NCBI GenBank assembly: GCA_017625405.1
Contig: JAGALB010000061.1
Location: 1-61,811, forward strand
Direction of reading: 5' to 3'
From: Ruminiclostridium sp.
Lineage (GTDB): Bacteria; Bacillota; Clostridia; Oscillospirales; Ruminococcaceae
DNA: 61,811 nt
Shown piece by piece: positions 3,257 to 46,643 of the stretch. Numbering within the stretch: the stretch's first letter is position 1; every line of letters begins with the position of its first letter. The translations under genes were made by a program, and so were the position numbers. Below the pieces are notes generated by a model that ran no database searches, had not been told where the DNA came from, and saw only the letters and a list, made by a program, of their open reading frames with translations.

Positions 3257-3482
3257 CGGTACTTATATAGAAGCGCTGTATGTATTTATCGGAGGAAACC
3301 TTTCTGAAGAAAGGTTGTCCCCCGTACCCCCTTCCAAAGACTTTCAATACTAATTACAGCCTGACAGGTTTACCCTGTCAGGCTGTAATTAATATCTGAA
3401 GTTTTAGGAAAGGAGTTTGAGGAATAACCCTTTTTCAAAAGGGTTTCCCTCAATAACATATAACACTTCTATACGAATATCG
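3257..3482. repeat. Long imperfect inverted-repeat element (complete copy)
   Basis: This intergenic stretch holds one roughly symmetrical element of about 226 bp. Its ends are a 17-bp inverted repeat (3257-3273 and 3466-3482, 13 of 17 matching, core TATAGAAG/CTTCTATA). Each arm carries a hairpin beginning GAGGAA and built on AACCTTT/AAAGGTT or ACCCTTT/AAAGGGT. The centre at 3354-3388 is a near-perfect palindrome on CCTGACAGG/CCTGTCAGG. A second copy starts at 61675 and matches the reverse complement of the right arm closely. It contains no gene. Confidence 0.8.
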
Positions 3483-24014: not shown

Positions 24015-24212
24015 ATGGAAGAGGAAAAAATTGCGGGAAAGGAAGAGGTGCTGGAATATCTCACAAATGTAATGCGTGACGCAGGTGTTGACGAAAAGAC
24101 ACGCATGAAAGCGTCAGAGCAGCTGGGAAAATATCTGGGTATGGATGCGGTGAGAAACAGGACCGAAGAAAAAATGACGGTGACTATCTGTGATGACATC
24201 GGCGGAAAATGA
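24015..24212 (+). CDS. Short phage terminase small-subunit-like protein
   Basis: The 65-residue protein includes KEEVLEYLTNVMRD and KTRMKASEQLGKYLGM, which resemble the oligomerisation part of Terminase_2-type small subunits. The N-terminal DNA-binding HTH of that family is missing. AAAGGA at 24001-24006 fixes the start. It overlaps the large-subunit gene by about 20 bases, the usual phage order. It is probably a remnant, or a very short form. Confidence 0.6.
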   Translation: MEEEKIAGKEEVLEYLTNVMRDAGVDEKTRMKASEQLGKYLGMDAVRNRTEEKMTVTICDDIGGK

Positions 24213-25473
24213 AATCCGTCTGTCTGAGCTTATAGCACCGTCTTTTTACTGTATTCACCGTGATATTCAGGAAAAAGGCCACACCCATTATGTGCTGAGA
24301 GGCGGACGTGGAAGCTGCAAATCCTCATTTGTAAGCATTGAGGTGATTCTTGGGATAATGAACGATGAAAACGCAAATGGCGCAGTAATACGCAAGGTCG
24401 GACAGTATCTGCGTGACAGCGTTTTCGAGCAGCTGCTGTGGGCGATAGAAAAGCTCGGGGTTTCCCATTTATGGGAAGCAAAGGTGACAACCCCCGAGCT
24501 TATTTTTATTCCCACAGGCCAGAAAATACTTTTCCGTGGCGCAGACAAGCCGAAAAAACTCAAATCCACAAAGGTTGCAAAAGGGTATATCAGGTATATC
24601 TGGTATGAGGAGCTGGATGAGTTTTCGGGGCAGGATGAGATTGACACAATCAATCAGTCCTTAATGCGTGGCGGCGAGGTTTTCAGCTGCTTTTACAGCT
24701 TCAATCCTCCTCGTGAGAAAAATCACTGGGTCAATTCCATGTGCGACGAGCCGAGAAAAGACAGGCTTGTCCACAAAAGCGATTACCGTGATGTTCCTGC
24801 AGACTGGCTGGGACCTCAGTTCATAGCCGAAGCGGAATACCTGAGAGAAAGAAACCCCGCCCGTTATGAAAACGAGTATCTGGGTATAGCTTCAGGCACG
24901 GGTGCGGAAATTTTCCCCAATGTAACTGTCAGGAAAATAACCAATGAAGAAATAAACGGCGGAGAACGCTATTGCAGAGGCCTTGACTGGGGCTACGGCG
25001 CCGATCCCTTTGTGTATGTGGCAATGATTTATGACAAGGGCGCAAGGCGGCTGCTGATATATCACGAATTTTACAGATATGGTGCAAAATACGACGAGAT
25101 TGCGCAGGCGATAAAAGAGGAAAACCTTCGCAATTCCACCGTCATTGCCGAAAGCGCCGAGCCACGCTCAAATGACGAGCTCCGTGCCCGGGGGCTTCGC
25201 ATAAGAGCAGCAAAAAAAGGCAGCGGTTCTGTGGAATTCGGCATAAGGTGGCTGCAGAATCTTGATGAAATTGTCATCGACCCTGTCCGCTGTCCCAATA
25301 CCAGAAGAGAATTCTGCGGATACAGCTTTCTGCCTGACGGACACGGCGGCTTACGCAGTGAATTCCCCGACAGGGATAACCACTCCATTGATGCGGTGAG
25401 ATATGCCCTTGAGGATGACGCCGGAAGAAAGAACACCGCTGTTTATGACAGACGCAGACTCGGTATCCATTGA
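24193..25473 (+). CDS. Phage terminase large subunit
   Basis: The 426-residue protein is a PBSX-type terminase that pumps phage DNA into proheads. Visible motifs are Walker A GGRGSCKSSF at about residues 36-45, Walker B IWYEELDEF near 137, coupling motif YSFNPPR and nuclease-domain acids in GLDWGYGADPF and NHSIDAVRY. It looks full length. A GTG one codon earlier (24190) is an alternative start. No capsid, protease or tail genes follow the portal gene, so this is a cryptic packaging module. Confidence 0.88.
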   Translation: MTSAENEIRLSELIAPSFYCIHRDIQEKGHTHYVLRGGRGSCKSSFVSIEVILGIMNDENANGAVIRKVGQYLRDSVFEQLLWAIEKLGVSHLWEAKVTTPELIFIPTGQKILFRGADKPKKLKSTKVAKGYIRYIWYEELDEFSGQDEIDTINQSLMRGGEVFSCFYSFNPPREKNHWVNSMCDEPRKDRLVHKSDYRDVPADWLGPQFIAEAEYLRERNPARYENEYLGIASGTGAEIFPNVTVRKITNEEINGGERYCRGLDWGYGADPFVYVAMIYDKGARRLLIYHEFYRYGAKYDEIAQAIKEENLRNSTVIAESAEPRSNDELRARGLRIRAAKKGSGSVEFGIRWLQNLDEIVIDPVRCPNTRREFCGYSFLPDGHGGLRSEFPDRDNHSIDAVRYALEDDAGRKNTAVYDRRRLGIH

Positions 25474-25478
25474 CAGTG

Positions 25479-25590
25479 CGGGGTGCGGCAGCACCGCCCC
25501 GTAGCCCCTGCGGGGCTACGGGGCATTCTGCGCCGCCTTCGGCGGCGCAGAATAAGCTTTGCCTCCGGCAAAGCGTGCTGCCGCACCCCG
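25479..25590. repeat. Perfect DNA cloverleaf between terminase and portal genes
   Basis: A 16-bp perfect outer stem (25479-25494 with 25575-25590; CGGGGTGCGGCAGCAC and its complement) encloses three perfect hairpins. Arm 1 is 25496-25524 (13 bp, TGC loop), arm 2 is 25525-25553 (13 bp, TTC loop) and arm 3 is 25556-25574 (8 bp, TCC loop). Only three bases between the stems are unpaired. A second element of the same architecture and nearly the same length lies at 45236-45348. It encodes no evident protein. Confidence 0.9.
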
Positions 25591-25639
25591 TTTCCGATCC
25601 GCAGAAACTTCCCGCCGGAAAACAAAGAAAGGAAAAGAT

Positions 25640-26893
25640 ATGTTTCAGATAAGTGAAAGTGCAAAAATAACCCCTGAGCTTGCCCTTAAATATATTGTCA
25701 AGCATAACAGGGGTACGGATGTATATGAAAGGCTGAACGATTACTACACAGGAAATCATGCTATTCTTTCCAGAGTAAAGGAAAAGGGCGCAGCCAATAA
25801 CCGACTTGTGTGCAATCATGCAAAATACATCACTGACTGCACCACAGGTTATTTTATGGGCACTCCCGTTCAGTATCTCAGCAGAAAGGATGCTGATATT
25901 ACAGCTATAAAGGATGCGCTCAGAAAGGCCGACAGTGAGACGCAGGACATTGACCTTGCACGTCTTGGCTCTGTTTACGGTACGGCTTATGAGATGCTGT
26001 ATATTTCGGGCAAAAATCCGCAGATTAAGCTTGCAAGCCTTGATCCGCGCAATGCTTTTGTGGTGTATGACGATACCGTTGAGCAGAAGCCGCTTTTCGG
26101 CGTGTATTATATGCCCGTGTATACCGAAAACGATACTCTGAAGGGATATCGCTGTTACCTCTGTGACCGTGAGTGCAATACTGAATTCCTGATTGACGCT
26201 TCTTTCGGAATGAAGGAAAAGGGAAAGCCTTATCCTCATTATTTCGGTGATGTGCCGATTATTGAGTATTATAATAACGGCGACAGGCAGGGCGATTTCC
26301 AGCAGGTTACTTCGCTCATTGATGCCTATAATGTGCTTCAGTCCGACCGCGTAAATGACAAGGAGCAGTTCGTTGATGCAATTCTCCTGATAAAAGGACA
26401 GATTCTCGGTGATACCAGCGCAGAGGAAAGCGAAACCTACAAGGCGATAAAGGAATTCGGCATTATGACAATGGATGACTGCGGTGATGCGAAATGGCTC
26501 ACACGTCAGTTTGATGAGGCTTCGGTAGATATTCTCAGAAAGGCTATCGAAAATGACATTCACAAATTCAGCGGTGTTCCCTGTATGAATGACGAAAGCT
26601 TTTCGGGAAATGCCTCAGGTGTTGCAATGCGCTACAAGCTTCTTGCATTTGAGCAGATGACCAAGATAAAGGAAAGATATTTCGCAGAGGGTCTGAGACT
26701 CCGTCTTAAAATGATGGCGAATGCGCTCAATACAATGTCGGCAGTAAAGGTTGACACGGATAATATCGAAATTCTCTTTACGCATTCATTGCCCGAAAAC
26801 GAAACAGAGCTTGCACAGACAGCTAATCTCCTTAAGGATATTGTTCCTAATGAGAGGCTGCAGAAGCTCCTGCCGTTTATTCCCTGTGAATAA
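25640..26893 (+). CDS. Phage portal protein (SPP1 gp6-like), short at the C-terminus
   Basis: The 417-residue protein matches the SPP1-type portal family, the ring through which DNA enters the capsid. Examples are HNRGTDVYERLNDYYTGNH, a membrane-like GYFMGTPVQY, DDTVEQKPLFGVYYMP and the segment SFSGNASGVAMRYKLLAFEQ. It stops at LLPFIPCE, where relatives usually continue with an acidic tail of tens of residues, so the C-terminus is probably lost. AAAGGAAAAGAT before 25640 sets the start. The gene stands directly after the cloverleaf. Confidence 0.82.
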   Translation: MFQISESAKITPELALKYIVKHNRGTDVYERLNDYYTGNHAILSRVKEKGAANNRLVCNHAKYITDCTTGYFMGTPVQYLSRKDADITAIKDALRKADSETQDIDLARLGSVYGTAYEMLYISGKNPQIKLASLDPRNAFVVYDDTVEQKPLFGVYYMPVYTENDTLKGYRCYLCDRECNTEFLIDASFGMKEKGKPYPHYFGDVPIIEYYNNGDRQGDFQQVTSLIDAYNVLQSDRVNDKEQFVDAILLIKGQILGDTSAEESETYKAIKEFGIMTMDDCGDAKWLTRQFDEASVDILRKAIENDIHKFSGVPCMNDESFSGNASGVAMRYKLLAFEQMTKIKERYFAEGLRLRLKMMANALNTMSAVKVDTDNIEILFTHSLPENETELAQTANLLKDIVPNERLQKLLPFIPCE

Positions 26894-44302: not shown

Positions 44303-45226
44303 ATGGAATTTATCAAAGGGATAACTTTTGCATCCTTTGCAAGAAAGGGTCTGCTGGCAAGCGAAGAAGCGCACAGAAGCCTTGACAATCTTGTCGCACG
44401 CACCAATGCAAATCTGATTATTATTGTTCCGTTCGGACTTCAGGAAACGGCGCATTCAGAAAAGATTGAATACGATATGACCTGCGGTGATGACGAGCTG
44501 ACGGAATTTATAGATTATGCCCATAAAAAGGGGCTTATGGTAGCGCTGAAGCCTACGGTCAACTGCCGCAACGGCACATGGAGGGCTCATATAAACTTTT
44601 TTGATGAGGATGTACCCTGTGAGCCGAAATGGTGCAACTGGTTCAGCTCATACACCGATTTTCAGCTTCATTTTGCCCGTATAGCTGAAAAGGCAGGCTG
44701 TGAAATGTTCATTGCTGGCTGTGAAATGGTGCAGACCCAGCGCAGGGAAGCCGAATGGCGAAAGCTCATAGGCGATATAAAATCCGTTTACAGCGGTCCC
44801 GTATCATATAATACCGACAAATATCAGGAGCATAATGTCAGCTGGTGGGATTGTGTGGATATTATTTCCTCCAGCGGTTATTATCCTATCAATGACTGGG
44901 AAAATCAGCTTGACCGTATTGAAAAGGTAGTGAAGAAGTTCGGCAAGCCCTTCTTCTTTGCGGAAAGCGGTTGTATGTCGGTAAAGGGTTCAAATCTTGT
45001 TCCCAATGACTGGTCGGTAAAAGGCGATGTGGATTTACAGGGACAGGCAGATTGGTACAAAGCCATGTTTGCTGCCTGTGAAAAGCGTGACTGGGTAAAG
45101 GGCTTCGGAGTCTGGGACTGGGCAGGCAGACAGTATTCCGTCCAGGACGCCATGACTCACGGCGGATATGATATTTACGCAAAGCCTGCCGAGCAGGTTG
45201 TAGCGGAGTTTTACGGAAGAAAGTGA
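44303..45226 (+). CDS. GH113-like glycoside hydrolase (TIM barrel)
   Basis: The 307-residue protein shows a TIM-barrel pattern close to GH113 beta-mannanases. It opens KGITFASFARKGLLASEEA, then LVARTNANLIIIVPFGLQET, GLMVALKPTVNCRNGTWRA and IAGCEMVQTQRREAEWR (probable acid/base Glu near residue 140). FFFAESGCMS near 215 holds the probable nucleophile. It has no signal peptide, suggesting action on imported oligosaccharides. GGAGG precedes the ATG. The exact substrate is uncertain. It is alone between a terminator and the second cloverleaf. Confidence 0.68.
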   Translation: MEFIKGITFASFARKGLLASEEAHRSLDNLVARTNANLIIIVPFGLQETAHSEKIEYDMTCGDDELTEFIDYAHKKGLMVALKPTVNCRNGTWRAHINFFDEDVPCEPKWCNWFSSYTDFQLHFARIAEKAGCEMFIAGCEMVQTQRREAEWRKLIGDIKSVYSGPVSYNTDKYQEHNVSWWDCVDIISSSGYYPINDWENQLDRIEKVVKKFGKPFFFAESGCMSVKGSNLVPNDWSVKGDVDLQGQADWYKAMFAACEKRDWVKGFGVWDWAGRQYSVQDAMTHGGYDIYAKPAEQVVAEFYGRK

Positions 45227-45235
45227 AATTGCACC

Positions 45236-45348
45236 GTGCGGCGCACGGTCATATCTGCGTCAAAGCCGCAGATATGACAAAATGCGAAGGCAGCTTCGGC
45301 TGCCTTCGCATTATTTTTGAATAACTATTCAAAAATCGTGCGCCGCAC
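45236..45348. repeat. Second perfect DNA cloverleaf, between convergent genes
   Basis: A 12-bp perfect outer stem (45236-45247 GTGCGGCGCACG with 45337-45348) encloses three perfect hairpins. Arm 1 is 45248-45278 (12 bp, seven-base loop), arm 2 is 45281-45312 (14 bp, TTCG loop) and arm 3 is 45313-45336 (11 bp, tight two-base turn). At 113 bp it is one base longer than the element at 25479-25590, and both outer stems share GTGCGGC...GCCGCAC, although the arm sequences are unrelated. It may also end transcription of the two convergent genes. Confidence 0.9.
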
Positions 45349-45356
45349 TGACGGGA

Positions 45357-46643
45357 TTATCGGTCAGCACAGACTTCGATAAATGAAACGCCATAGCGGA
45401 TAAGCTCTTTAACACACTCGCCGTCAATTCTCTCGCCCGGCATCACAAGCGGAACGCAGGGCGGACAGGGGCAGTGTATGCCTCCGCAGATTCTTCCTGC
45501 GGCATTCTCTGTTTTTATGGTTTCTTTAGGACTGAAATATGCTTCTCTGGGCGAAATTATACATTCAGGCTTCAGAACGGTGTGGATTTCCGATTCAGAA
45601 AAGCCTTTGCGTGGCAGATTTTTCATTATAGTGTATAACTGTTCAAAATCTTCCGCTTTCTGCGAAACGGAAAACAGCATAACCACATATTTTTCATCGC
45701 TCATTTCGCATTCTGTGCCCTTTTCCCGTAAAAGCTGCGCTAAATCATAACCGCTGTATCCATAAGCTTCAGCGTCAACTGTAATACGCATGTCATCGCT
45801 TTTTTTCAGAGTGTATCCGATGCTTTCAAGGCTCTTTTTAAGAGCGTTTATTTCCTTGATTGTACGGAGTGAGTCTTCTTTGTTTCCGGCAATGAATGAA
45901 TTGCACAAATCCAGGCTGTCAAGAATAAGGTAGGAGGGGCTTGATGAGCCGAACATACCCATAACATTTTTGGCGGTGGGATAAAGTGCTGCGTCACGCA
46001 GATGAAGGTATGCTCCGCCTGTAAGACAGGGCAGGGTTTTGTGGGCACTGTCTGCGGTCATATCCGCGCCGAGGATAATGGGATGATTTTTTGTAAACAC
46101 CTTGTATGCTCCGTGAGCGTTGTCTACAAGAAGCTTTATGCCGTGCCTGTGGCAGACCGCAGAAATAGCGGTAATATCTACCTCGCCGCCGTAATAGTCC
46201 ACTGAGCTTATGAAAACCGCAGCGGTATCGCTGTCAATCAGCCTTTCGATTTCTTCGGGAGAAATAACAGTGCTGAGATATTCTTCGGGATATGCCCATT
46301 TTATATTGAAGCCCAGCAGTATGCAGGCTGTGAGCAGACTTTTGTGGCTGTATCTTCCTGCAATAATCGTGTTTTTTTCGCTTATCTGTTTTAATGTTCC
46401 CAGCATTCCCTGAATAGCAAGGGTGCTGCCGCCGCAGGAAAAAAGGGTTGCACCTGCGCCGAAAAGGGCGGCGGTATTATTTTCGCTTTTACGGATGATT
46501 CCGTCAGCTTCGTAAAGGCTGTCAGCGCCGTCTATTTCTGTAATGTCAAAAGGGCTGTTCATCCCTTTCCCGCCGGGCATATGACAGCGTATCATATTTT
46601 TATTGCTGTAATCTGTAAGAAAGTCATGTACAGGAGTGTTCAT
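45357..46643 (-). CDS. PLP-dependent Orn/Lys/Arg decarboxylase family protein
   Basis: The 428-residue protein has the family opening (HMPGGKGMNSPFDITEIDGADSL, shortened here to the core MPGGKG), LFSCGGSTLAIQGML and AVFISSVDYYGGEVDI. LVDNAHGAYKVF and the PLP-binding Lys in DSAHKTLPCLTGGA follow. It resembles the short YaaO/SpeA-like branch, without the response-regulator-like wing domain of large inducible decarboxylases. It probably makes a polyamine precursor; substrate uncertain. It is convergent with the GH113-like gene across the cloverleaf. Confidence 0.82.
   Translation of the reverse strand: MNTPVHDFLTDYSNKNMIRCHMPGGKGMNSPFDITEIDGADSLYEADGIIRKSENNTAALFGAGATLFSCGGSTLAIQGMLGTLKQISEKNTIIAGRYSHKSLLTACILLGFNIKWAYPEEYLSTVISPEEIERLIDSDTAAVFISSVDYYGGEVDITAISAVCHRHGIKLLVDNAHGAYKVFTKNHPIILGADMTADSAHKTLPCLTGGAYLHLRDAALYPTAKNVMGMFGSSSPSYLILDSLDLCNSFIAGNKEDSLRTIKEINALKKSLESIGYTLKKSDDMRITVDAEAYGYSGYDLAQLLREKGTECEMSDEKYVVMLFSVSQKAEDFEQLYTIMKNLPRKGFSESEIHTVLKPECIISPREAYFSPKETIKTENAAGRICGGIHCPCPPCVPLVMPGERIDGECVKELIRYGVSFIEVCADR

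Follow-up and report, generated by a model that had tools for sequence, protein, structure and literature searches.

The cloverleaf at 25479-25590 of the window (the whole stretch of 61,811 nucleotides that was analyzed) is probably one copy of a dispersed, non-autonomous family of palindromic mobile elements of this Clostridia genus. Direct support comes from the dispersal of the copies, the conservation of their shape, DNA-type hairpin tips, hypervariable loops, inversions, a bounded unit, and two insertion sites that are short in relatives. Our comparisons support a family that keeps its architecture, i.e., perfect pairs, and not its letters.

The cloverleaf and its copies

The element spans 112 bases, in which a 16-bp outer stem surrounds three perfect hairpins (13, 13, and 8 bp, each with a 3-nt loop), and only C25495 and A25554-25555 are left unpaired between the stems (Table 1). 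The inner part of the 25479-25494 stem half, GTGC-GGCA-GCAC, is itself a palindrome. Folded as single-stranded DNA, the segment 25470-25600 reached -68.1 kcal/mol (z -12.1), and the element folded as RNA reached -106.8 kcal/mol (z -12.6); neither value was equaled by any of 200 shuffles. The cloverleaf drawn in the earlier note, with its three unpaired bases, was thus confirmed by sequence, folding, and shuffles, and its location between the terminase and portal genes by the PF04466/phrog_3717 and PF05133 matches. The element starts five bases past the terminase stop codon. We considered an intrinsic terminator (one GC hairpin with a run of T after it) and rejected it on reading the sequence, which has three arms and an outer stem followed by TTTCCGATCC. 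Elsewhere in the window, we observed an inverted repeat at 3286-3456 (83 nt, 76% complementary, 5-nt center).

Table 1. Positions of the genes, stems, arms, and cloverleaf copies discussed in the text (window positions unless a contig, C, is named)
Feature	Position	Strand	Remarks
Terminase large subunit gene, upstream of the element	24190..25473	+	PF04466, E 7.3e-37; phrog_3717, terminase large subunit
Probable inserted segment, terminase stop to portal leader	25474..25624	.	from stop-to-portal distances; right edge approximate
Outer stem, 5' half	25479..25494	.	16 bp, perfect; pairs with 25575-25590
Arm 1	25496..25524	.	13 bp, loop TGC
Arm 2	25525..25553	.	13 bp, loop TTC
Arm 3	25556..25574	.	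8 bp, loop TCC
Outer stem, 3' half	25575..25590	.	pairs with 25479-25494
Portal protein gene, downstream of the element	25640..26893	+	PF05133 (SPP1_portal), E 1.4e-97
Second window cloverleaf	45236..45348	.	12-bp outer stem GTGCGGCGCACG; folds as drawn, both strands
Arms of the second window cloverleaf	45248-45278; 45281-45312; 45313-45336		12 bp, 7-nt loop; 14 bp, 4-nt loop; 10 bp, 4-nt loop
Own-genome cloverleafs, perfect outer stem	25479-25590; 45236-45348; C8:13095-13209; C42:17377-17481; C55:3940-4049; C2:28115-28214		detector script
Own-genome cloverleafs, perfect outer stem (rest)	C22:29298-29398; C29:47718-47824; C45:24823-24929; C53:47493-47599; C62:10633-10744		detector script
Twelfth own-genome cloverleaf, imperfect outer stem	C23:31741-31842		covariance model R1

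We then followed the element through its own genome (G000) using a detector script that looks for a perfect outer stem enclosing short-loop hairpins. The scanned stretches amounted to 2.11 Mb with overlaps counted, i.e., nearly the whole genome, leaving out C62 59601-63920 and C53 79401-79769. With at least two inner hairpins, the script gave 14 matches, whereas eight rounds of dinucleotide shuffling, 16.9 Mb in total, gave none. Eleven were three-arm cloverleafs with a perfect outer stem (100-115 bp), one was an alternative boundary for a cloverleaf already counted (L188), and two (L143 and L185) were AT-rich two-hairpin forms that we excluded from the cloverleaf count; many single hairpins were listed as well. 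Because a general MAFFT alignment of the 11 copies mixed their arms, a covariance model, R1, was built from three own-genome copies. R1 recovered 10 of the 11, missing the copy at 45236, and added one with an imperfect outer stem, so that the own genome holds 12 three-arm cloverleafs. The second cloverleaf in the window has a GH113 gene (44303-45226, +) on one side and an Orn/Lys/Arg-decarboxylase-like gene (45357-46643, -) on the other, both with their 3' ends towards it.

The flanks of the own-genome copies have almost no similarity to one another, apart from one 41-base match between L157 and L188. Among the 12 tested, they rarely paired better with their own partner than with the flanks of other copies (clearly at L114, weakly at L150 and L127), and flank pairing therefore failed as a general rule in G000. 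With flank similarity and pairing this low, a unit larger than the cloverleaf is seen only in relatives. The arms of the G000 copies also differ greatly, so their common descent rests on shape and a few similar arms.

A second class of structure was observed in the own genome: three tandem hairpins without an outer stem (L153:13090-13167, L184:7070-7162, L150:2990-3080, and L052:9360-9450). One hairpin of this class reads CATTTTCCGCC-nnn-GGCGGAAAATG, or similar, in L150, L052, and, with a mismatch, L184.

The covariance search of related genomes that had been suggested earlier did find copies: R1 matched 5 of the 71 genus genomes, the own genome included (G000, G005, G063, G083, and G084). The remaining 66 gave no match to R1, which marks the family as narrow. 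Among 394 sampled genomes of the order, at least four matched, all of this genus and the own genome among them; stricter filters and at most nine scored candidates per genome make this count a lower bound. The outer stem hardly varies in G005 and its kin (GCGGCGAAGCCGC...GCGGCTTCGCCGC). This pattern occurred in 54 stretches of a public genome collection, and the script found cloverleafs in 41, all from the MAGs uncultured Ruminiclostridium Lapin-020, -022, and -023, Oscillospiraceae HAN074, and Oscillospiraceae Mgla_MAG_6-bin_38; it found none in the other 13, which came from other organisms. Carriers are thus G000, four of the other 70 genus genomes, and one further MAG. Our catalog has 70 rows (G005, 23; G084, 22; G000, 12; G083, 7; G063, 4; Mgla MAG, 2), the relatives' rows coming from pattern or model matches, so that their copy numbers are lower bounds. 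One AT-rich row of G000 (L168) was dropped as a chance form, which leaves 69 copies; the imperfect C23 copy is extra.

The ends GTGCGGC/GCCGCAC, put forward earlier as a signature of the family, are present in 3 of the 12 own-genome copies and did not hold up in that role. The motif GTGCGGC N78-108 GCCGCAC matched in 26 of the 71 genus genomes. In G000, there were three forward matches versus none for a reversed-pattern control, and outside G000 31 versus 44; the script found no cloverleaf in the 25 of these 31 that were scanned. BLAST of the window element among 41 genomes matched G000 and no other. We found no published description of this cloverleaf family in the open-access literature, a scope that leaves outside most subscription papers and all preprints.

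Pairing, hairpin tips, and change at orthologous sites

To follow pairing across the family, we aligned 55 model matches; the 54 distinct rows, in many cases the two strands of one element, were fitted to the structure and hence lean towards it. In this alignment, 95.9% of the cells paired, versus 52.4% after shuffling and 38-48% with the partners slid, and the covariation score was 0.829 versus 0.161. Both sides changed in 51 of the 52 pairs; the number of further pair types (161) showed no excess over shuffles (161.5). With less bias, we tested every pattern match in the examined loci of the five carrier MAGs, fixing the 13-bp stem ends alone and leaving out the 13 stretches from other organisms in which the script found no cloverleaf. 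All 51 matches had three hairpins, with 1659 Watson-Crick pairs, 3 G-U pairs, and 28 unpaired nucleotides outside the loops. The near absence of G-U pairs argues for a constraint at the DNA level. The claim that architecture and not sequence sets the family was therefore supported by copies in the own genome and in relatives, which keep pairing and covary strongly.

The tips of the hairpins are distinctive too. By script, the 69 copies contain 168 perfect hairpins of at least 6 bp, 157 of them with 3-nt loops; of these loops, 119 are GNA or its complement TNC, and 155 are closed by a C-G pair. Among the other perfect hairpins of the own genome (at least 8 bp, 3-nt loops), the corresponding counts were 41 and 98 of 222. 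The loops occur in both strand senses (GNA 62, TNC 47). In addition, the outer-stem half is self-palindromic over at least 4 bp in 61 of the 69 copies (7 of 11 in G000), leaving a single strand two possible folds, one cloverleaf or a series of five small hairpins. We infer that the folded DNA, and not RNA, is the target of selection or of a copying process.

We also compared orthologous elements among G005, G084, and G083. Of 28 comparisons, 23 could be aligned base by base (four were left out for unequal length and one for lost ends); they are not all independent, some sites being counted in two or three genome pairs. Across the 23, divergence was 40% in the loops (83 of 207 positions), 8.3% in the aligned flanks, and 1.1% in the stems. 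Among the stem pairs, 746 were unchanged, 11 had changed on one side, and 3 on both; with one-sided changes outnumbering two-sided ones, close relatives show less full compensation than the family at large. The slow stems could reflect concerted evolution among copies rather than selection. Of the 69 loops, 27 were identical, 8 were exact reverse complements, and 34 had changed otherwise. Assembly error could account for some of the loop changes because the sequences are MAGs. In 4 of the 23 comparisons, the interior was inverted relative to the outer flanks, one of the four including about 100 bp of near flank. Between L242:582-670 (G005) and L252:3626-3714 (G084), we observed the element inverted along with about 95-110 bp of flank on each side.

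Insertion sites, a bounded unit, and competing explanations

The comparison with empty sites that had been proposed for the element found short equivalents at two junctions. At the terminase-portal junction, the distance from the terminase stop to the portal gene is 166 nt; the closest relatives, L017 and L018, have 17 and 15 nt there. Across 26 relatives, the gap was 12-18 nt in eight, 49-263 nt in eight, and absent or an overlap in five; the five odd junctions comprised one of 20 nt with a distant terminase, one of 605 nt, and three without a start found. At the second site, the C22 copy lies between co-directional genes, which we take to be jag and mnmE, and the junction measures about 200 bp, versus 8-19 bp in five of the six genomes in which both flanks matched. 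The sixth genome (G004) has 170 bp with other hairpins. Where G084 has a single element, G005 has two (L262 and L251).

Other palindromes were seen at both junctions. Three of the eight long terminase-portal junctions (L019, L024, and L031) contain other perfect hairpins with arms of 12, 14, and 8 bp, and this junction may be a hot spot for palindromes. In L306 (G004), the junction matching the own-genome C22 site holds, in place of the cloverleaf, a different palindromic insert with GGGCGAAC-tgt-GTTCGCCC.

A bounded unit was observed among the copies in relatives. D-type copies form a 267-bp unit (L281:716-982) whose ends are shared at three non-orthologous sites in G005, G083, and G084, where the copies are 87-91% identical. 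The cloverleaf is central in the unit, with 79 and 77 bp on its two sides, and the sharp ends carry imperfect terminal inverted repeats. Beyond the orthologue, the unit gave six matches at two more sites, starting at query position 417 (five) or 427 (one) and ending at 679-694. In another locus (L273, about 1150-1340), about 190 bp of additional sequence, containing long imperfect inverted repeats, lies in the G084 and G083 flank and is absent in G005; this is another MITE-like insert.

Dispersed copies and two short sites support the mobile palindromic element proposed in the earlier note, and its further suggestion, movement as folded single-stranded DNA, is plausible. When the region becomes single-stranded, the strand would fold into compact mini-hairpins, and an enzyme supplied in trans would recognize the folded single-stranded DNA, as proposed for REPINs and IS200/IS605 elements. 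The opening and resealing of hairpins, together with recombination between palindromic arms, would then change loops and cause inversions as side effects. More speculatively, DNA shape itself might be the heritable unit: the element would be copied via a folded single-stranded cloverleaf, a non-RAYT enzyme would open and reseal the tips in each cycle, scrambling or flipping the 3-nt loops and inverting the arms, and only perfectly refoldable copies would survive.

Some observations count against a mobile element. By eye, we saw no convincing target-site duplication: TTATGA occurs on both sides of L250, and the other D-type copies compared share no clear repeat. The REP transposase profile PF01797 had no match in the carriers G000 and G005 (5 of 14 control genomes match), and this reading is weakened by the lack of a linked transposase there. 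SbcD is a subunit of a hairpin nuclease. It scored over the cut-off in none of five carriers (G083 has a partial match below it), so SbcCD is no obvious loop cutter in carriers. An expected role for SbcCD was in this way unsupported; the contrast with non-carriers (4 of 20) shows nothing, given a Fisher p of 0.55. More generally, SbcD exceeded the curated cut-off in only 4 of the 25 genus genomes tested; of the 14 control genomes, 8 were above it and 13 matched at all.

Alternatively, the elements might not be mobile: palindromes would arise and stay perfect by replication template switching at quasi-palindromes and spread by ordinary duplication alone. Near-perfect stems with variable tips match such templated repair, and single mismatches are present, with 11 single-changed pairs to 3 double-changed ones. 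We nevertheless consider this unlikely, since template switching does not account well for the recurrence of a 267-bp unit, ends included, at three non-orthologous sites, for one three-arm plan at 12 own-genome sites, or for the short equivalents at two sites.

We judge it slightly less likely still that the elements act as RNA, in which case the terminase-portal transcript would fold as a cloverleaf that protects, processes, or attenuates the mRNA, with the same happening at other operons. The extreme RNA fold energy fits this idea, as do the five own-genome copies with a stop codon no more than 30 bp away (window 25479, window 45236, L150, L198, and L181) and the at least two copies between co-directional genes. 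However, RNA would tolerate G-U pairs, of which there are 3 in 1662 arm pairs; the loops are strand-symmetric, with 8 of 69 flipped between orthologues, and interiors are inverted in 4 of the 23 comparisons. Placement near stop codons holds for several own-genome copies, yet is no family-wide rule, and neighboring genes come in all arrangements, including 5'-5' in 10 of the 57 elements with both neighbors picked. These gene calls are simple ORF picks, and 53 of 70 elements overlap a picked ORF, assumed here to be an open frame running through the palindromes; most copies are for that reason presumably, rather than directly, intergenic. Rfam gave no match in the window at the gathering score, the lowest E value under lax settings being 0.025 (22.5 bits, against a cut-off of 80). 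The structured RNA suggested at the outset is accordingly disfavored.

Finally, a phage packaging or recombination site, another early suggestion, is very improbable despite the location inside a packaging operon: the script found no cloverleaf in the scanned stretches of 41 other terminase loci (the junction being examined in 26), exact searches of viral contigs with two patterns from the window element and one from relatives' elements gave no match, and other own-genome copies lie outside the phage region, one of them between metabolic genes. BLAST of the element against phages and plasmids returned partial matches only (best E 0.03).

Comparison with known systems

Descriptions of known bacterial palindromic repeats, REPs among them, rely on a conserved sequence. 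In the mobile family proposed here, the sequence drifts but a four-helix shape and a DNA-specific triloop persist, and a sequence search misses the family for that reason. The family is a natural test case for the idea that folded single-stranded DNA is the thing that moves and undergoes selection, and its hypervariable loops, slow stems, and inverting interiors provide a comparative readout of hairpin processing in living genomes.

In the parts of PMC3116915 considered here, REPINs are short, non-coding, dispersed elements in which two inverted terminal palindromes flank a spacer; length and hairpin capacity are critical, and changes are compensatory. REPINs and BIMEs are described there as paired REP palindromes for which movement by RAYT is proposed, and the legend of figure S11 names a "clover" fold as the form likely recognized by the transposase. 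As far as that account goes, our family resembles REPINs in its inverted terminal palindromes, given the self-palindromic outer-stem halves, and in a hairpin spacer with compensatory change, but has three perfect internal arms in place of a simple spacer. It also differs in that PF01797 (RAYT, Y1 transposase) was not detected in G000 or G005 and in that G000 and the other carriers do not share the sequence of its ends. REP palindromes carry a GTAG or CGTC tag at one end, according to the portion of PMC3733652 considered; by eye, no common tetranucleotide lies beside the stems of the 11 own-genome copies. We did not file the family as REPINs because these two features, RAYT in two carriers and the tag, fail.

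The D-type unit, small, non-coding, and bounded by terminal inverted repeats, resembles a bacterial MITE, a likeness seen in the relatives' copies; here, however, the conserved part is the folded center. The tips recall the DNA mini-hairpin d(GCGAAGC), whose GNA loop on G-C pairs is, in the part of PMC4686876 considered, extraordinarily stable (Tm 78 C) and nuclease-resistant; that work concerns synthetic oligonucleotides, and the same part makes no mention of mobile DNA.

Sponge mitochondrial RHEs, as presented in the sections of PMC2800124 considered, have conserved stems, substitutions in the loops, and triple-hairpin regions, and Allomyces double-hairpin elements (DHEs), as cited there, lack flanking duplications. 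Dispersed hairpins with conserved stems and variable loops are what we observed as well, in bacterial contigs instead of organelle genomes. An enclosing perfect stem, GNA triloops, and inversions are not reported in those sections. Overall, by analogy, the family appears to work most like REPINs and mitochondrial hairpin elements.
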